From the IMG/VR virus record IMGVR_UViG_3300025127_000108, positions 1-36,858 of that record: a stretch of 36,858 nt of DNA; one strand, 5' to 3'. Positions 6,613-15,479 of the stretch are shown here, piece by piece. The notes beneath the pieces are model-generated. The model had not been told where the DNA came from. It saw only the letters and a program-made list of their open reading frames with translations, and made no database searches. How positions within the stretch are numbered: the first letter of the stretch is position 1; each line of letters starts with the position of its first letter. The position numbers and the translations under genes are program-made. This stretch comes from a virus.

Positions 6613-7650
6613 ATGGCGTTTCAAAAAGTTGAGTATGAGTTTCCTGATGAAAAAGATAAGAAGCCTGAGATAGAGGTGGAGGGTTCAGATGCCATTGAAA
6701 TTGATCTTTCTGGTAAGGCAGCTAAAGAGCCTGATCCAGAGTCTGCGCGTGCAGACAATACTGATGATGACAAACTTGAGATTGAAGTTGTTGACGATAC
6801 TCCAAAAGCTGATCGCAACCGCAAGCCTTCTGAGCCACCAGCTGATGTCACTGATGAAGAACTTGAAGAATACTCTGATAAAGTTCGTAATAGAATCAAG
6901 CACTTCAGTAAAGGCTACCATGACGAGCGTCGTGAAAAAGAAAAAGCCATCAGGGAAAGACAAGAACTTGAATCTTTAGCTCAACGTCTCGTTGATGAAA
7001 ACAAAGAGCTAAAAGGCACAGTTGGTAAAAACCAGTCAGCTATGCTTGAGCAAGCTAAAAGATCAGCTGCGGTTGAACTGGCAAGTGCTAAAGCAGGATA
7101 TAAAGAAGCGTATGAATCTGGAGATGCAGACGCTGTCACTGCAGCACAAGAAAAATTAACTGCTGCTACAATTAAATCTGATAAGGTAAATAATTTCAAA
7201 CTTCCTCCTTTACAGGAAGAAGAAACTCCTGTTAAGGTGTCACCAGAACCCACCCAACCAGTGGCGGATTCAAAAGCCAGAGAATGGGCAGCAGCTAATC
7301 CTTGGTTTGGATCTGAAGATGGTATTGGCATTGAAATGACAAGTTTTGCCATGGGTGTGCATAGTAAATTAGCTAAAGACAACGTTGTTGTTGGAAGCGA
7401 TGAATACTACGAGAAGTTAGATTCTCGTATGCGCCAAGTGTTCCCAGATAATTTTGAGGACACTTTAGAGGAAGTAGAGGTCGAGAAGCCGAAAAAACAA
7501 GCTAATGTGGTTGCTCCCGCAACTCGGAGCGTGGCACCTAAAAAGGTCAAACTAACGCAAACACAGGTAGCTATAGCTAAACGACTTGGAGTTCCTTTAG
7601 AATTATACGCCCAAAAGGTTGCAGAAGAGATGAGGAAAGATAATGGCTGA
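6613..7650 (+). CDS. Capsid scaffolding protein
   Basis: Probable scaffold that guides assembly of the major capsid protein and then leaves the prohead (345 aa). It is acidic and low-complexity for the first 100 residues, then has a charged coiled coil (about 110-135, RREKEKAIRERQELESLAQR) and another helical stretch to about 190. The C-terminal basic helix pair (KKVKLTQTQVAIAKRLGVPL) resembles the coat-binding ends of podovirus scaffolds. Ribosome-binding site AGGAG lies 9 bases before the ATG. Position between portal and capsid genes agrees. No protease-like motif is visible. Confidence 0.8.
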   Translation: MAFQKVEYEFPDEKDKKPEIEVEGSDAIEIDLSGKAAKEPDPESARADNTDDDKLEIEVVDDTPKADRNRKPSEPPADVTDEELEEYSDKVRNRIKHFSKGYHDERREKEKAIRERQELESLAQRLVDENKELKGTVGKNQSAMLEQAKRSAAVELASAKAGYKEAYESGDADAVTAAQEKLTAATIKSDKVNNFKLPPLQEEETPVKVSPEPTQPVADSKAREWAAANPWFGSEDGIGIEMTSFAMGVHSKLAKDNVVVGSDEYYEKLDSRMRQVFPDNFEDTLEEVEVEKPKKQANVVAPATRSVAPKKVKLTQTQVAIAKRLGVPLELYAQKVAEEMRKDNG

Positions 7651-8769: not shown

Positions 8770-9681
8770 ATGGCTATTTCACGCGCACAACTACTTAAAG
8801 AACTCCTTCCCGGCCTGAACGCTTTGTTCGGATTGGAGTACGCAAAGTACGGTGAAGAACATGCAGAAATCTTTGAAACAGAGACTTCTGATAGATCTTT
8901 TGAAGAGGAGACCAAATTATCGGGCTTCTCAGCAGCACCAGTCAAAAACGAAGGCTCTGCCATCGAATATGACAACGCACAAGAGGCGTTCACCGCTCGC
9001 TATTCACACGAAACAGTTGCAATGGGCTTTTCAATTACTGAAGAGGCTATTGAAGATAACCTGTATGACTCACTGTCATCTCGTTACACTAAAGCGCTGG
9101 CTCGTGCGATGGCATACACAAAACAAGTTAAGGCAGCAAATATCCTGAATAACGCTTTTGCTGCTGGTACTACATATGGAGATGGTAAGTCTCTGTGTGC
9201 CACAGATCACCCACTTGTGAGCGGTGGAACTAACTCTAACGAACCTGCAACTGCAGCTGATCTTAACGAGACTTCACTTGAAGCCGCCGTTATTCAGATT
9301 GCTGGTTGGACAGACGAGCGTGGTTTGCTGATTGCTGCAAGACCACGTAAGTTAGTGATTCCACCGAATCTACAGTTTGTGGCGACTCGTTTGCTAGAAA
9401 CTGAAGGACGTGTGGGTACAGCGGATAACGACCTTAATGCGCTTCGCAATAACGGTTCTATCCCAGAAGGCTATGTAATCAATCACTATTTGACTGATAC
9501 AGATGCTTTCTTCCTTATGACTGACGTTCCAAACGGCTTGAAGCACTTCGTACGTAGCCCAATGGCTACCGCTATGGATGCTGACTTCAGCACTGGCAAC
9601 AGCCGGTACAAAGCCCGTGAGCGTTACTCATTCGGTGTATCCGATCCACTGGGTATCTTCGGCTCACCCGGAGCTGCTTAA
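8770..9681 (+). CDS. Major capsid protein (Mu gpT-like)
   Basis: Major head subunit (303 aa) of HK97-like fold, resembling the Mu gpT family. Signature features are the N-terminal LKELLPGLNALFGLEY, a segment GFSITEEAIEDNLYD (residues 86-100) and YGDGKSLCATDHPLVSGG (136-153), which is typical of gpT-like coats. Length fits a coat with no cleaved scaffold domain, consistent with the separate scaffold upstream. It has the strongest ribosome-binding site in the region (AGGAGGAG) and is followed at once by a strong intrinsic terminator, as expected for the most abundant virion protein. Confidence 0.92.
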   Translation: MAISRAQLLKELLPGLNALFGLEYAKYGEEHAEIFETETSDRSFEEETKLSGFSAAPVKNEGSAIEYDNAQEAFTARYSHETVAMGFSITEEAIEDNLYDSLSSRYTKALARAMAYTKQVKAANILNNAFAAGTTYGDGKSLCATDHPLVSGGTNSNEPATAADLNETSLEAAVIQIAGWTDERGLLIAARPRKLVIPPNLQFVATRLLETEGRVGTADNDLNALRNNGSIPEGYVINHYLTDTDAFFLMTDVPNGLKHFVRSPMATAMDADFSTGNSRYKARERYSFGVSDPLGIFGSPGAA

Positions 9682-10570: not shown

Positions 10571-11176
10571 ATGGGCCATAGTTCAGATATAAAAGCTAAA
10601 TTCATCAGCGATGAAAATGCGTCAGATGATGATCGTCTAGTAACGGCAGCAAGGCCAAACACTAGCGCTACCATGGCAAATACAACTTTTGCCGGAGGTG
10701 GTGCTAGAAATGTAACTGTTACTACCACTGGCAGTAGTGATAACGGTAAGACTTGTACCATCACAGGCACAGATGTTTTTGGTAATGCTATGACAGAGGT
10801 TATAACTTCTACTGGCAGCGCGACCACTGTTGCAGGCACTAAGTTGTTTCTTACAGTGACAGCTGTGGAATGTTCTGCTCAGTATGCAGCGAACATTAAA
10901 GTCGGGTCAGGTGATCTTTGTGCGGAAGCCATAAACGGAAGTAACAGAGTCAGGCTCAAAGGGTTTTCTATAGTATCTGGCGGCACAGCAGGAACAGTGG
11001 AGTTTATCAATAATACTCCGGAGAATGGTTCTGCGGTGTTTAAGTCTCGCACTATCGGAACTGATAATACCACATTAGACAGAACCATACCGGCAGACGG
11101 TGTTTTGTTTGAAGATGGCATGTCAGTTAAATATACGATAGCTACTATAGACATGATGACTTTCTTCCATGGCTAG
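10571..11176 (+). CDS. Virion structural protein, 201 aa
   Basis: Ser/Thr/Gly-rich beta-type protein with long runs of alternating small and hydrophobic residues (GGGARNVTVTTTGSSDNGKT; GTDVFGNAMTEVITSTGSAT). No domain I can name. Composition and location among head genes suggest a virion surface component or head-completion protein. Start ATG 10571 is preferred because AAGGAG lies 6 bases before it. A TTG at 10556 is in frame but lies inside the hairpin and ribosome-binding region. The 3' end overlaps the next gene by 8 bases. Confidence 0.75.
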   Translation: MGHSSDIKAKFISDENASDDDRLVTAARPNTSATMANTTFAGGGARNVTVTTTGSSDNGKTCTITGTDVFGNAMTEVITSTGSATTVAGTKLFLTVTAVECSAQYAANIKVGSGDLCAEAINGSNRVRLKGFSIVSGGTAGTVEFINNTPENGSAVFKSRTIGTDNTTLDRTIPADGVLFEDGMSVKYTIATIDMMTFFHG

Positions 11177-11459
11177 ACGAAAAGGCACCATGAAGGGTCA
11201 CACCATCAAGGGGGGTCACAAAAGACCCACCAAAGCTGGTGCGGGTATGACGGCAAAAGGTGTTGCTAAATATCGTAGAGACAACCCCGGAAGTAAATTA
11301 AAGACTGCTGTTACAGGCAAAGTAAAACCGGGCAGCAAAGCTGCTAAACGGCGTAAATCGTTTTGCGCTCGTTCTGCGGGACAAATGAAGAAGTTCCCAA
11401 AGGCAGCTAAGAATCCTAATAGCAGGTTGCGTCAAGCGAGGCGGAGATGGAAATGTTAA
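11169..11459 (+). CDS. Small highly basic phage protein (DUF6321-like)
   Basis: A 96-aa, very Lys/Arg-rich protein with no acidic cluster. It contains AGMTAKGVAKYRRDNPGSKL, then KRRKSFCARSAGQMKKFPKA, and ends RLRQARRRWKC. The pattern TAKG...Y+++NPGSKLK..V...KRRKSFCARS.G is one I recall from short proteins in many tailed phages, and I believe it matches the DUF6321 family; this was not checked. Charge predicts nucleic-acid binding; a packaged or ejected internal protein is possible. It overlaps both neighbours by a few bases and opens the basic-protein cluster that runs to 14230. Confidence 0.8.
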   Translation: MARRKGTMKGHTIKGGHKRPTKAGAGMTAKGVAKYRRDNPGSKLKTAVTGKVKPGSKAAKRRKSFCARSAGQMKKFPKAAKNPNSRLRQARRRWKC

Positions 11460-11698
11460 ATGCTCAGTTCGTAGCAGGCACTCTATTCGTCGCCTTTGTT
11501 GGCTTATGCGCAACTGGGCTTACGTGGATATCATCAACTTTATTAGAGGTTGATAAGAACGTGGCTGTTATTGCAGTTAAAGTGGACAATAACAGCCAGA
11601 AGATAGACGAACTACACACTATGTTAAAACCCATGTGGGAAGATTTTACAGGTAGACAATACGAAGATAATCTTGCATGGAGCAAAACCGAAAGATGA
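11447..11698 (+). CDS. Small membrane protein with coiled coil, 83 aa
   Basis: A single membrane segment (about residues 9-30, GTLFVAFVGLCATGLTWISS) is followed by a short amphipathic coiled coil (EVDKNVAVIAVKVDNNSQKI) and a polar tail. This resembles small phage holin-like or XhlA-like proteins, though those usually carry the membrane segment at the other end. It could also be a virion membrane-attachment factor. It overlaps the preceding basic gene by 13 bases. A second in-frame ATG at 11453 is possible. Confidence 0.7.
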   Translation: MEMLNAQFVAGTLFVAFVGLCATGLTWISSTLLEVDKNVAVIAVKVDNNSQKIDELHTMLKPMWEDFTGRQYEDNLAWSKTER

Positions 11699-11701
11699 TA
11701 A

Positions 11702-12385
11702 ATGCCATACTTACAATCAAATATACCACACTTCAACGCTTGGGTTCGGAGAGAGTACACTAAGAATTTTGAGGAATATCATGGAGAGTTTTTACATGCT
11801 ATGGTGGTTGCCGTGACTACGATGCCCAACCGCACTCTTAGTTTTCAAGTCATATTCACAGGATGTGAGTCTGACGATACTGACGACCCTAACGTACATG
11901 GTGGCGCTATGTGGGCTAGGATGCCTCTGACAGCGCTTGTGGCTGATGTACCCTATGAAGAGTGGCCTACAGAGTTACCACCCTACCTAGCTCAACCTTG
12001 GGACTGTATGTCACACTATCACGCAGTTTATAAAATTGAGCGGGCAACACCTGCACCTTGGATAGCCAAGGTAGATGGTGAATTTTACCCCGCTAAATAC
12101 TATTTCACTGTGGATTATACAGACAGTGAAGTAGCCGATCATCCTGCACAACATAAACAAAGTCATGTACTGGAGTTGTTAGACGCAGGAGAATATACAG
12201 GTAATATTGTAGCGTTACCTAACAATCGGGTGCGTGTCACGCATCCTGCGTGGTTTGAAACAGGGCAGGGCGCTCCAGACTTCAGACCGAACCAACATAC
12301 TTTCAATTCTAAAGAAAATGTAAGTTATGTTTGGGACACTGAGCGTGTGTTTAACAACTTGTATAAGGAAGAAGAAAATGGCTAA
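11702..12385 (+). CDS. Hypothetical protein, 227 aa
   Basis: I do not recognise this protein. It is soluble, aromatic- and proline-rich and looks globular. Visible features are an N-terminal WVRREYTKNFEEYHGEFLHA, a cluster rich in Tyr/Trp/Pro (PYEEWPTELPPYLAQPWDCM), and a C-terminal part with HPAWFETGQGAPDFRPNQHT. I found no known catalytic motif. It starts 3 bases after the preceding stop and overlaps the following basic protein by 8 bases. It is one of the few acidic to neutral globular proteins inside a run of basic proteins. A partner or enzyme acting on them is conceivable but unsupported. Confidence 0.75.
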   Translation: MPYLQSNIPHFNAWVRREYTKNFEEYHGEFLHAMVVAVTTMPNRTLSFQVIFTGCESDDTDDPNVHGGAMWARMPLTALVADVPYEEWPTELPPYLAQPWDCMSHYHAVYKIERATPAPWIAKVDGEFYPAKYYFTVDYTDSEVADHPAQHKQSHVLELLDAGEYTGNIVALPNNRVRVTHPAWFETGQGAPDFRPNQHTFNSKENVSYVWDTERVFNNLYKEEENG

Positions 12386-13289
12386 TGGATTTAGAGGCGA
12401 GCAGTCTGCAAAAGCGGCAAAAAAGAGAAGCAAAGATTTTGACTTCCCAGAGAAAGCATTTGGTGCAGGAAAGAAGAAACCCGCAAGTAGAGCTGCTAAA
12501 AGAGGCACTAAAAGCGGCGCTACTAAAAAAGTCAGCCCCGGACAAAAAGGTATTACTGCTCCTAGAACTGTTGCAGAAGCAAAACGGCGTGGCTCTAAAA
12601 CATTTATAGATAAATCAGGCAAGCGAAAAGCTGCGGTGACAGCGGAAGAGCTGAAGAAATCAGGTCTGTCTTTGCGTGATTATCTTAACAAGCAACAGGG
12701 TAAGACTCGTGCAGGACCAAAGGCTCCTACAACCAAACCAACGTCAAAACCTAAAAAGGCCACATCTGGCAATAAGTTTTTACAGGCAAGCGCAAAGAAC
12801 GTGGGTAAAACTAAGCCAACTCCAGTTCAAGTTGGTCTGGGTAGTGGTAAAGCTGCTGCACCAAAGAAGACCCCTGTGCAACAACCTCTAGGCACTGGTG
12901 TTCGCGGTAATCAACCTTTAGGGACTGGTAGACGTGAGAAAAAAGATACTAGCACTCCTTATACACCTATAGGTATGAAAGCCGGTGGCATGAAAAAAGG
13001 CTACAAGATGGGTGGCATGAAAAAAGGCTATTCCATGGGTGGCATGAAGAAAAAAGGTATGGCTGCTGGAGGTCTAAACGCCGCTATCAAAATGGTGGAC
13101 AAACAGAAAAAAGGTATGGCTGCTGGTGGCATGAAGAAAAAAGGTTACTCCATGGGCGGTATGCGTAAAAAAGGCTTTTCTGCCGGTAAGTCGGTTCGTG
13201 GTGTGGGTAAAGCCACCAAAGGCTTTCGTCCAGTTAAAATGGTTATGATGACTAAGGGCGGTAAAAAAGGCGGTAAGAAGAGAAGATAA
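12378..13289 (+). CDS. Basic Gly-Met-Lys repeat protein, 303 aa
   Basis: Strongly basic, low-complexity protein. Residues 1-200 are Lys/Ala/Pro/Thr-rich, with two PLGTG repeats near residues 172-185. Residues about 203-270 are tandem imperfect repeats of GGMKKGY(S/K)M and GMAAGGMKKKG. The end is very basic (KGGKKGGKKRR). I chose ATG 12378 because it overlaps the previous stop in the usual way and follows a GAAGAAA purine stretch; upstream in-frame codons read through the previous gene. No fold is predictable. A nucleic-acid-binding or internal virion role is inferred from charge and context. Confidence 0.8.
   Translation: MANGFRGEQSAKAAKKRSKDFDFPEKAFGAGKKKPASRAAKRGTKSGATKKVSPGQKGITAPRTVAEAKRRGSKTFIDKSGKRKAAVTAEELKKSGLSLRDYLNKQQGKTRAGPKAPTTKPTSKPKKATSGNKFLQASAKNVGKTKPTPVQVGLGSGKAAAPKKTPVQQPLGTGVRGNQPLGTGRREKKDTSTPYTPIGMKAGGMKKGYKMGGMKKGYSMGGMKKKGMAAGGLNAAIKMVDKQKKGMAAGGMKKKGYSMGGMRKKGFSAGKSVRGVGKATKGFRPVKMVMMTKGGKKGGKKRR
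12984..13186 (+). repeat. Imperfect tandem repeats encoding GGMKKGY-type units
   Basis: ggtggcatgaaaaaaggcta-type units recur within the 303-aa basic protein, alternating with ggtatggctgctggtggc-type units (encoding GMAAGG). Codon-level similarity between units is high, which suggests recent duplication by slippage or recombination. Confidence 0.8.
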
Positions 13290-13292
13290 TAA

Positions 13293-13448
13293 ATGGTTGC
13301 AAAGATATCTACGATAAAACGTAAGATAAAAACTGGCGAAAAGATGGGTTTTAGTGAGAGAGCTAGAGCCGTCAACAAGGGGCTTTTACCAAGTGCGAAA
13401 AAGAAAAAGAGATCCAAAAGTAGGAACAGGAAAAAAGCCAAAAGGTAG
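13293..13448 (+). CDS. Small basic protein, 51 aa (possibly the N-terminal half of a split gene)
   Basis: ATG 13293 lies 3 bases after the previous stop and opens a frame ending at TAG 13448. The protein starts MVAKISTIKRKIKTGEKMGF and ends in a Lys/Arg-rich tail (KKKKRSKSRNRKKAKR). The first half looks like genuine protein sequence. The tail continues in sense, in a different frame, into the gene below (KKPKGSGRRLYTDENP). It may therefore be a separate small gene, or the start of a protein split by a programmed or accidental frameshift in the A-rich stretch around 13397-13440. Confidence 0.6.
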   Translation: MVAKISTIKRKIKTGEKMGFSERARAVNKGLLPSAKKKKRSKSRNRKKAKR

Positions 13449-13686
13449 TGGTCGCAGGCTTTATACTGATGAGAATCCCAAGGATACCGTGGGTATAAAG
13501 TTTGCCACTCCTGCCGACGCCAGAGCAACTGTGGCAAAGGTAAAGAAAGTAAATAAGCCCTTTGCCAGAAAGATACAGATACTTACTGTCGGTGAACAGA
13601 GAGCCAAAGTCATGGGTAAAACCGAAGTTGCCAGAATATTTAGGCAAGGTAAAGAAAGCATAAGGAGGGCTAGAAAAAATGCCTAA
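13393..13686 (+). CDS. Basic conserved phage protein, about 97 aa
   Basis: The body GSGRRLYTDENPKDTVGIKF and the following TPADARATVAKVKKVNKPFA look well folded. They match a basic protein I recall from marine phages; function unknown. The start is uncertain. GTG 13393 has AAGGGG 10 bases upstream and is my choice. An in-frame GTG at 13354 gives 110 aa but an unnatural-looking N-terminus. Another possibility is entry from the 51-aa frame by a +1 (or -2) shift. The gene ends overlapping the next by 8 bases. Confidence 0.7.
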   Translation: MRKRKRDPKVGTGKKPKGSGRRLYTDENPKDTVGIKFATPADARATVAKVKKVNKPFARKIQILTVGEQRAKVMGKTEVARIFRQGKESIRRARKNA

Positions 13687-13948
13687 AGACGCTTGTTATC
13701 ACAAAGTAAAAGCTCGCTATAGAGTGTTTCCGAGCGCTTATGCTTCAGGGGCCATTGCGAAATGTAGAAAGGTCGGTGCGGCCAACTATGGCAAAGGTAG
13801 CAAAAAGAAGAAGAAAGCCACTGGAGGCGTTGTAAATTTTGACAATGGCGGTCTAGCTAGACGTAGAAGAAAAAGACCCACTAAAAACGGTAATGTGGCT
13901 AGAGGTTGTGGGATAGTTAGTCGTCGTAAAGTTACAAAGTACGTGTGA
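13679..13948 (+). CDS. Small basic Cys-containing protein, 89 aa
   Basis: The N-terminal segment PKDACYHKVKARYRVFPSAY, followed by ASGAIAKCRKVGAANYGKG, is a motif I recall from short proteins of phages and large DNA viruses. A Lys run and the motif GGVVNFDNGG (residues 49-58) follow, then a basic end RPTKNGNVARGCGIVSRRKV with TKYV. Conserved cysteines (ACYHK, AKCRK, RGCGI) could bind metal. It has a very strong ribosome-binding site (AGGAGGG) ahead of ATG 13679. A nucleic-acid-binding virion protein is likely but not shown. Confidence 0.8.
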   Translation: MPKDACYHKVKARYRVFPSAYASGAIAKCRKVGAANYGKGSKKKKKATGGVVNFDNGGLARRRRKRPTKNGNVARGCGIVSRRKVTKYV

Positions 13949-13954
13949 GGCATT

Positions 13955-14230
13955 ATGGCTGTACGTAAAACCAAAAAGGGATTAGCGCTAAAACGCTGGT
14001 TCAAGGAGGATTGGAAAGATGTACGCACTGGCAAAGCATGTGGCAGACAGAAGGGTGAAAAGCGCGGAACTCCTTATTGCCGTCCTTCCAAGCGTATTTC
14101 TTCAAAAACTCCTAAAACTGTTGGAGAAATGACGGCTGCTCAAAAACGTAGTAGGATTGCGCAGAAGAAGAGAATAGGACAACCAGCGGGTAAACCAAGG
14201 CGCGTTAAGTCGTTAAGAAGGAAAAAGTAA
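13955..14230 (+). CDS. Small basic protein, 91 aa (possibly DUF5872-like)
   Basis: Starts MAVRKTKKGLALKRWFKEDW, followed by KDVRTGKACGRQKGEKRGTP and YCRPSKRISSKTPKT, then a Lys/Arg-rich end. The pattern L+RWF+E+W.D..TGK.CGR......YC+PS occurs in short phage and giant-virus proteins. I believe this is DUF5872, but I could not verify the family name. The two cysteines and aromatic residues suggest a small folded core with basic tails. It follows the previous gene by 6 bases and is the last member of the basic cluster. The next gene starts immediately after its stop. Confidence 0.8.
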   Translation: MAVRKTKKGLALKRWFKEDWKDVRTGKACGRQKGEKRGTPYCRPSKRISSKTPKTVGEMTAAQKRSRIAQKKRIGQPAGKPRRVKSLRRKK

Positions 14231-14911
14231 ATGGCTACATCAGGCACCACCGCATTTGACATGGATTTCACTGAAATCGCTGAAGAAGCGTGGGAGCGTG
14301 CCGGACGTGAGATGCGGTCGGGTTACGATCTCCGCACAGCTCGCAGATCCATGAACCTGATGACTATTGAGTGGCAGAACCGTGGCATTAATATGTGGAC
14401 TATTGATAGCGGGACGATATCTGTCACTGCAGGAACGTCTCAGTATAATTTACCTGCAGACACCATAGACCTGTTAGATCAAGTAATCCGCACAAACGCA
14501 GGCAATGCAGCCACACAATCTGATCTCACCATAACACGTATTGGTGTTAGTACTTACGCGTCGATCCCAAACAAGTTAACATCTGGTAGGCCAATACAGG
14601 TATTTGTGGAGCGTTTAGCCACGCCCAGAATAAATCTGTGGCCTGTGCCAGATCAGACATATACGTTTGTGTATTTTAGAATGAGAAGAATAGAAGATGC
14701 TGGTAACGGTGTTGAAACAGCAGACGTGGTGTTCAGGTTCTTACCATGCCTCGTAGCTGGTTTAGCGTATCACATAGCCATGAAAACACCAGAGCTGGCT
14801 GATAGAGTCGCTATGCTAAAAACAGCTTACGATGAGCAATATAATCTGGCTGCAGGTGAAGATAGAGAGAAGACATCTGAGCGATATATACCGAGAGTTG
14901 CTAGGATTTAA
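14231..14911 (+). CDS. Head-tail adaptor (gp4-like)
   Basis: A 226-aa protein resembling the podovirus gp4-like head-completion or tail-adaptor family that binds under the portal. N-terminal helices contain AFDMDFTEIAEEAWERAGRE and the signature-like ARRSMNLMTIEWQNRGINMW. A beta-rich middle follows (SGTISVTAGTSQYNLPADTI and the RIGVSTYASIP region). The end is helical (LVAGLAYHIAMKTPELADRV). Position downstream of head genes and before tail proteins fits. I see no sign of a peptidoglycan hydrolase motif, which some gp4 proteins carry. Confidence 0.8.
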   Translation: MATSGTTAFDMDFTEIAEEAWERAGREMRSGYDLRTARRSMNLMTIEWQNRGINMWTIDSGTISVTAGTSQYNLPADTIDLLDQVIRTNAGNAATQSDLTITRIGVSTYASIPNKLTSGRPIQVFVERLATPRINLWPVPDQTYTFVYFRMRRIEDAGNGVETADVVFRFLPCLVAGLAYHIAMKTPELADRVAMLKTAYDEQYNLAAGEDREKTSERYIPRVARI

Positions 14912-14913
14912 CT

Positions 14914-15240
14914 ATGTCTAATAGATTCGCATCCACAAAAAGAGCTATCGCAGAGTGCGATATATGTGGATTTAGATATAAATTACGTGATTTACGTAAT
15001 ATAATAAGAAAAGGTAACGATACTAATCTAAAGGCATGTTATGAATGTTATGATCACGATCACCCGCAACATAAGTTAGGTATGTTTCCTGTGGATGATC
15101 CGCAAGCAATACGAGATCCAAGACCAGACTTTGCTGGTTACGCAGAAAGTAGATCATTTAAGTATTCGGGGTCTTTAGATAATAAACTAGAGTTCGTTAT
15201 GACTGCATCTGTAGGTTCGGTCACAGTATCAACTTCATAG
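14914..15240 (+). CDS. Zinc-ribbon-like small protein, 108 aa
   Basis: It contains two CxxC pairs, C15-D-I-C18 and C42-Y-E-C45, separated by 23 residues with basic content, as in a treble-clef or zinc-ribbon fold. After the second pair comes a His/Asp-rich stretch (YDHDHPQHKLGMFPVDDPQA), and then a short beta-rich C-terminal tail (SVGSVTVSTS). The protein starts 2 bases after the adaptor stop. Metal binding is predicted from the motif. The role is unknown: it could be a structural virion part that uses zinc for stability, or a DNA-binding factor. Confidence 0.8.
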   Translation: MSNRFASTKRAIAECDICGFRYKLRDLRNIIRKGNDTNLKACYECYDHDHPQHKLGMFPVDDPQAIRDPRPDFAGYAESRSFKYSGSLDNKLEFVMTASVGSVTVSTS

Positions 15241-15248
15241 GTAAAACA

Positions 15249-15479
15249 ATGGCAATGACGAGGGCAAACATGAGCAAGCAAGTAAACAACCCCCCTGCTA
15301 AATATAAAGGGTTTTCTAAACTACCAGAAGCGGTGCAACAAAAGATGGACCCGGAACTGGCTAAGACTTATAAGTTTGGCAAGCTGGTGCGAGCGAAAGG
15401 TAAAGCTAAAGGCGGCATCAAGATACGTGGCGCAGGTGCAGCAACTAAGGGTACTATGGCTCGCGGTCCTATGGGGTAA
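15249..15479 (+). CDS. Small basic conserved protein, 76 aa
   Basis: A 76-aa protein with a helical segment (KYKGFSKLPEAVQQKMDPEL) and a Gly/Lys-rich end, KAKGGIKIRGAGAATKGTMA, followed by RGPMG. The ending (IKIRGxGAATKGxxARGPM) is one I recall from short proteins in marine podovirus tail regions. Function is unknown. The basic tail is similar in style to the cluster at 11169-14230, and the gene sits between two adaptor-like proteins. An ATG at 15255 is a possible alternative start. Confidence 0.75.
   Translation: MAMTRANMSKQVNNPPAKYKGFSKLPEAVQQKMDPELAKTYKFGKLVRAKGKAKGGIKIRGAGAATKGTMARGPMG

Follow-up and report, generated by a model that had tools for sequence, protein, structure and literature searches.

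What are seven small, strongly basic proteins doing among the head genes of a virus? We analysed a virus record of 36,858 bases (IMG/VR record IMGVR_UViG_3300025127_000108; the whole of this stretch is called the window) in which such a cassette, here B1 to B7 in gene order, lies close to the gene for the major capsid protein (MCP). The first-pass annotation of the sequence had proposed that these could be capsid-internal DNA-condensing or ejected nucleoid-binding factors, like a viral protamine set, some of which might simply be assembly factors. Head-internal basic proteins are already known in phage T4, and DUF6321 and DUF5872, two families that we find in the cassette, are named but unexplained. 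On the analysis presented here we think it somewhat probable that the cassette encodes head-internal, probably DNA-associated virion proteins that would work like the T4 internal proteins, with the modules split into separate genes here and fused in relatives.

Results

We scored 42 genes of the window for isoelectric point (pI), taking the gene at 10571-11176 from 10574, and found seven products with pI 10.8-12.0 within 11169-15479, as against 4.1-9.3 for the remaining 35. The first-pass annotation had listed six basic products (96, 303, 51, about 97, 89 and 91 amino acids, aa) and a seventh of 76 aa at 15249, interrupted by a membrane protein and a globular orphan; all seven are present in those places, and the interruptions are there too, as a product of 83 aa with a hydrophobic N-terminus and one of 227 aa with pI 5.0. 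The seven genes lie inside one 11-gene run, for which the chance in a fixed run is C(11,7)/C(42,7), about 1.2e-5, the run here having been picked post hoc. Their products have a summed net charge of +207; by simple arithmetic, a particle holding 30 of each would offset the charge of about 8% of the phosphates in a 37-kb genome. The cassette is flanked on the left by the MCP and cement-like genes and on the right by the adaptor-like gene at 14231-14911; the order portal, MCP, adaptor is backed by PHROG matches and by comparison with phage DSL-LC04. The terminase of the window is 44-46% identical to those of the pelagiphages HTVC027P and HTVC023P and of a relative.

Four of the seven, B1, B4, B5 and B6, are conserved modules on which purifying selection acts about as strongly as on the capsid protein. 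Their ratios of nonsynonymous to synonymous substitution (dN/dS) against relatives, listed in Table 1, are near that of the MCP (0.04), and because these ratios are low we take the basic genes to be real genes. Because these four conserved modules have dN/dS values close to that of the capsid protein, we reject a pure protamine reading. The protamine part of the first-pass proposal is not supported in the form given, these four being cysteine-paired or helical modules and not charge polymers, and the capsid-internal part gains from the head-gene context, from relatives in virions and from T4-like N-termini on relatives of the type of S-SM1 T4-GC119, both described below. The low-complexity look is confined to B2, B3, B7 and the tails. 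The DUF6321 module of B1 stops exactly at the C-terminus (RRWKC being the last residues), as it does in 191 of 196 domain sequences counted; this placement is an observed property, outside Pfam's definition. The two-cysteine 'PSAYA' module of B5 is found in PHROGs 727 and 3477, upstream of DUF6321 inside the same profile, and B5 resembles the N-terminal part of DUF5872 (PF19197, profile positions 12-50) below the cut-off (16 bits against 27.5, E 0.019), while B6 covers only positions 48-111 of the 116 in that profile. Profile scans found no Pfam or PHROG family for B4.

The cassette recurs widely. Among 239 viral contig loci the families of B1, B4, B5 and B6 are present in 148, 107, 92 and 102, respectively, and among 76 distinct complete MCP-to-adaptor intervals B1 (DUF6321) occurs in 69 and B5 and B6 in 47 each, with a median of 4 basic genes per interval versus 0.5 on the antisense strand. 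These locus counts cover related sequences, not independent events, and loci L009-L168 were collected via basic-protein queries, so that only the interval rows of L169-L247, for which the query was a non-basic neighbour, escape that bias; there DUF6321 is found in 19 of 20 intervals (the contig of L169 was found by basic queries as well). Five of the 76 intervals hold no basic gene, and in L168 the modules are placed upstream of the MCP gene. In the cultured pelagiphage HTVC033P, gp42 to gp36 form an unbroken row of seven basic proteins (42-96 aa, net +15 to +22), and in HTVC027P and P-SCSP2 the genes sit between portal/scaffold and MCP. Of 50,697 phage records, 402 hold DUF6321-like sequences, 364 PSAYA-like sequences, 9 B4 and 7 B6. 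Bacterial and archaeal genome contigs gave 75 loci, nearly all from metagenome bins or single cells and mostly from water by title, with a query alignment in which 14 of 15 rows were one codon short and had lost the last cysteine; in 21 of the 75 the stretch retrieved also encodes an MCP of window type, which makes phage contigs the likely source. We note that three phage records (OQ594354, OL906435 and PP438419) have the same length (65,014) and the same terminase match under three different host names.

On contigs of marine cyanophage type the modules occur in fused form. B5 is followed by B1 in 49 scanned open reading frames (ORFs), B4, B5 and B1 are joined in 5, and a 597-aa protein of locus L325 carries B4, a B6-like segment, B5 and B1. 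We assign the B6-like segment because of a profile-profile comparison (probability 97.3%, E 2.6e-11) and a weak structural match to a DUF5872 protein (E 1.4e-3); the Pfam scan did not recover it. From their sequences, B1, B4, B5 and B6 appear to be modules that related marine phages carry either as separate neighbouring genes, as in the window, or as parts of one or two larger virion proteins, and the fusions together with the gene order indicate that the cassette proteins belong together. The fused proteins of L300 and L279 contain an inserted DUF192 domain (PF02643, 1.3e-26 and 6.7e-27).

The cysteines of three of these modules come in pairs. Among 194 DUF6321 sequences with the motif (2 of 196 lack it), 181 have two cysteines, 13 have four and none has three; both PSAYA cysteines are kept in 108 of 126 sequences, neither in 15 and an odd number in 3, two of which look unrelated; and DUF5872 has two in 83 of 83. 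This pairing suggests disulfides, which we predict on that ground. Searches of solved structures with B1, B5 and B6 singly and with B1 and B6 profiles gave no convincing relative, the matches of B1 being designed repeat proteins with weak scores. In a model of the L325 protein (mean predicted local distance difference test, pLDDT, 68.5; predicted template modelling score 0.32) the B4 helices reach a pLDDT of about 95; in its structural matches Z does not exceed 7.3 for the helices and is about 5 in the segment 446-508, and we make no fold claim from this model.

Homologous modules are found in cyanophage proteins that were detected in virions or are labelled as virion proteins. In the whole record of S-CREM2 just two proteins carry a module, gp137 (B1 module, C-terminal) and gp160 (B5 module); mass spectrometry of purified virions detected 52 of the 219 ORFs, these two included (PMC10665884). 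The sole carrier of S-SCSM1, gp029 (517 aa; B6-like, B5 and B1), is labelled 'virion protein' in its record, in which the 47 such labels come near to, and do not equal, the 45 mass-spectrometry proteins of the paper (PMC9602691). In all, three of four carriers that could be judged are detected or labelled as virion proteins; for S-CREM1, with 14 virion proteins reported but not identified by number in the text consulted, the DUF6321 gene SCREM1_179 could not be judged. The S-B68 record annotates a T4-GC119 homologue as a structural protein, and the carriers of S-SM1 and S-SCSM1, as well as gp137 of S-CREM2, lie near terminase genes.

A second line of evidence comes from N-termini. T4 internal proteins enter the prohead core via a capsid targeting sequence, in which residues 4 and 7 serve targeting and 8 and 10 processing, and the T4 head protease cleaves after L/I-x-E (PMC9026906); in the T4 record (NC_000866) both IPII and IPIII begin MKTYQEFIAEA. 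We composed a capsid-targeting pattern after viewing cyanophage N-termini, and the T4 N-termini were read later. Of 20 DUF6321 proteins of less than 300 aa from loci that S-SM1 T4-GC119 retrieved, 13 have it, whereas in the same loci it is found in 9 of 531 other ORFs on the plus strand and in none of 323 on the minus strand, and shuffling gave it in 4 of 20,000 cases; none of 55 longer DUF6321 proteins and none of 6 isolate proteins of the same set has it. By eye, and outside the counted set, SSZBM1_192 of S-SZBM1 begins MKTFKQYITEA. Eight of the nine other plus-strand matches are one family of 101-119-aa proteins, and the ninth is different. Eight cyanophage-type loci (L271, L292, L299, L302, L303, L304, L317 and L323) encode this near-neutral protein with a T4-like start (e.g. 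MKSFQQFLSESITING) where the DUF6321 gene ends; it may be another internal head protein. By eye, a beta-alpha-beta segment of the L325 protein (residues 446-508) resembles it, and structure comparison matched this segment weakly (Z about 5) with ribosomal proteins of the eL20 type and with T7 Gp2.

A different terminal feature marks the window, where an RGxGx[AV] tail is common to the C-termini of B2, B5 and B7. The tail is better conserved than what precedes it, with 36% identity against 16% over the rest of the protein for B2 (18 relatives) and 75% against 15% for B7 (20 relatives). Over 8008 ORF products, which include spurious frames, the last 30 residues account for 151 occurrences of RG.G.[AV] and all other positions for 20, a density of 0.63 versus 0.03 per 1000 residues; control patterns are flat or nearly so, RG.G.[^AV] also being slightly C-terminal (0.25 versus 0.16). 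A wider [KR] pattern is found in 178 proteins, 177 of them plus-strand, with a median net charge per residue of +0.21. Among 86 tagged ORFs, 61 lie between MCP and adaptor, 13 upstream and 12 downstream, and since 25 are thus outside the interval the tail is not confined to the cassette; nor is it tied to one function, as only one of ten larger tail-bearing proteins has a Pfam domain (LysM). In DSL-LC04 (L427, 13181-13408) a 75-aa protein has at its N-terminus a stretch, RGMGCATRGGG, that resembles the C-terminal tails, which weakens the description of the feature as C-terminal only.

Table 1. Features of the basic cassette and its landmarks in the window.
Feature	Position	Strand	Description	Evidence
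MCP	8770..9681	+	major capsid protein, left landmark	phrog_371 2e-22
B1	11169..11459	+	96 aa, pI 12.0, net +31, DUF6321 module	PF19846 50.4 bits vs cut-off 28.5, residues 25-94; dN/dS 0.06
83-aa protein	11447..11698	+	small, non-basic, hydrophobic N-terminus (by eye); interrupts cassette	relatives in 41/239 loci
227-aa protein	11702..12385	+	acidic globular neighbour, pI 5.0, outside basic set	PHROG 3704 1e-28; dN/dS 0.03
B2	12378..13289	+	303 aa, pI 11.3, net +69, low-complexity, KKGYxxGGM repeats; C-terminal RGVGKATKGFRPVKM tail	dN/dS 0.45
B3	13293..13448	+	51 aa, pI 12.0, net +19; least certain gene	relatives in 7/239 loci; 56-base overlap with B4
B4	13393..13686	+	97 aa, GTG start, pI 11.6, net +22, helical module (LYTDENPKDT...)	dN/dS 0.04
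B5	13679..13948	+	89 aa, pI 11.1, net +24, two-cysteine 'PSAYA' module, C-terminal RGCGIV tail	phrog_727 6.4e-18; dN/dS 0.08
B6	13955..14230	+	91 aa, pI 11.8, net +28, C-terminal half of DUF5872	PF19197 59.0 bits vs cut-off 27.5; dN/dS 0.06
Adaptor-like protein	14231..14911	+	cassette boundary on right	48% identity to DSL-LC04 adaptor, annotated there as Pam1 adaptor protein
B7	15249..15479	+	76 aa, pI 10.8, net +14, variable body, conserved C-terminal IRGAGAATKGxxARGPMG tail	dN/dS 0.26

Among the neighbouring genes, the PHROG matched by the 227-aa protein bears the name ferredoxin, which we regard as doubtful, and the gene changes place, being found in other loci after DUF5872 or upstream of the MCP gene. 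Between the adaptor-like gene and B7 lies a gene (14914-15240) whose place after the adaptor is kept in most loci seen. Its 108-aa product has four cysteines (CDIC...CYEC), is zinc-ribbon-like by eye and was assigned to no Pfam or PHROG family.

Discussion

We consider a capsid-internal role reasonable because the set is coherent, its setting is that of head genes, relatives are found in virion proteomes and short relatives have a T4-like N-terminus. For this phage we infer an interior location, contact with DNA, disulfides and ejection. The cassette proteins would be made late along with the head genes, would enter the prohead ahead of DNA pumping and would remain among the packaged DNA, neutralising part of its charge; they might then leave with the DNA or aid its first steps in the host, in the manner of the T4 internal proteins. 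In B1, B5 and B6 the cysteine pairs would probably form staples after the particle leaves the cell.

Several observations weigh against this reading. None of 128 short window-type DUF6321 proteins matches the T4-like N-terminal pattern, and targeting here would therefore need another signal. Detection of S-CREM2 gp137 consists of 4 peptides with 4.1% coverage, which may fall outside the basic module, and the protein is overall acidic (net -20); furthermore, the authors of that study caution that abundant non-virion proteins can persist in caesium chloride (CsCl) preparations. The only DUF6321 protein of S-SZBM1, SSZBM1_192 (165 aa), is absent from the 30 virion proteins detected for that phage. 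In the available portion of PMC3037559, T4-GC119 is named 'a hypothetical protein' and other clusters virion structural, wording that suggests that T4-GC119 was not detected in S-SM1. The structural model of B6 is weak (mean pLDDT 66).

The missing detection of SSZBM1_192 would also fit proteins that act as prohead assembly factors, that is scaffold accessories around the MCP that for the most part do not stay in the particle beyond maturation, as with the T4 core proteins gp67 and gp68. The genes do adjoin the MCP gene, or lie between it and portal/scaffold in HTVC027P and P-SCSP2, and the capsid-targeting N-terminus of the cyanophage-type relatives is T4's route into the prohead core (PMC9026906). 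However, mature virions of S-CREM2 still contain carriers, the S-SCSM1 record labels its carrier a virion protein, and the charge of the cassette proteins far exceeds that of the product in the scaffold position of the window (6613-7650, pI 4.9). We regard this explanation as rather unlikely.

Less probable still, in our view, is binding of host or phage nucleic acid within the cell, as in takeover of the nucleoid or of transcription, with detection in virions being carry-over. The high net charge of the proteins would suit such a role, as would the CsCl caveat and the position of some carriers near nrdA and primase genes (S-CREM2 and S-B68), but the genes sit in a late head operon in the window, as they do in 69 of 76 intervals, and this, like the capsid-targeting N-termini, argues otherwise. 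We think it very improbable that the cassette consists of nucleic-acid- or ribosome-associated housekeeping-like proteins that are basic by accident, or of low-complexity filler genes. B2 and B7 do evolve loosely (dN/dS 0.45 and 0.26), and a different segment of the fused L325 model (446-508) has weak ribosomal-protein-like matches; however, B1, B4, B5 and B6 change at about the slow pace of the capsid protein, and the set recurs across many marine phages.

If the cassette proteins do act inside the head, it is conceivable, though we think it unlikely, that the RGxGx[AV] tail of the otherwise unrelated B2, B5 and B7 serves as a signal for loading cargo, by which DNA-associated proteins are drawn into the HK97-fold head; one internal-protein family would then be served by two unrelated addressing systems, a C-terminal tail here and N-terminal targeting in the T4-like cyanophages.

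No function is stated for the DUF6321 and PSAYA modules, which hundreds of phage isolates from marine cyanobacteria and SAR11 carry, as do ocean contigs that number at least in the hundreds. In the open-licence literature of PubMed Central we found no paper tying DUF6321 or DUF5872 to the head interior, only a table entry, nor did we find there the link between DUF6321 and DUF5872, their split and fused forms, the cysteine pairing or the two terminal tags. Linking the modules as one head-internal set would provide a testable role for many late 'hypothetical' genes of very abundant viruses, and the two tags would amount to a natural experiment on how proteins are addressed into phage heads, for which the cultured phages HTVC033P, HTVC027P and S-SCSM1 make testing possible.

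Among known systems, encapsulins load diverse cargo into an HK97-fold shell by means of a short conserved C-terminal peptide. The RGxGx[AV] tails resemble such peptides in form, as conserved C-terminal stretches carried by otherwise diverse proteins. The ascovirus protein P64 is a cationic virion protein shown to condense viral DNA (PMC6163548), and its repeated two-cysteine motifs and basic low-complexity part recall the cassette; it differs in belonging to a eukaryotic virus and in being unrelated in sequence, and its 2-cysteine adaptor domain (pfam08793) had no match in any protein scanned (E up to 1). T4 IPI, IPII and IPIII are small, basic proteins of the head interior, present in about 360-370 copies, that bind DNA at low salt and are ejected into the host (PMC9026906). 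Like them, the seven products of the window and gp42-gp36 of HTVC033P are small and basic, and the cyanophage-type DUF6321 relatives share, in form, the short N-terminal targeting sequence. The window proteins differ from the T4 proteins in having no targeting N-terminus, in charge (+14 to +69, against +4 for IPII and +9 for IPIII) and in the paired cysteines of their modules; the scans gave no sequence family common to both, none of the PHROG matches of the seven is named internal protein, and no direct comparison with IPI-III was made. Lastly, the DUF6321 virion proteins of cyanophages (S-SCSM1 gp029, S-CREM2 gp137 and gp160, and S-SM1 T4-GC119) share homologous B1, B5 and B6-like modules with the cassette, but whereas in these phages the modules are domains of proteins of 297-517 aa, in the window they are separate small genes beside the capsid gene.

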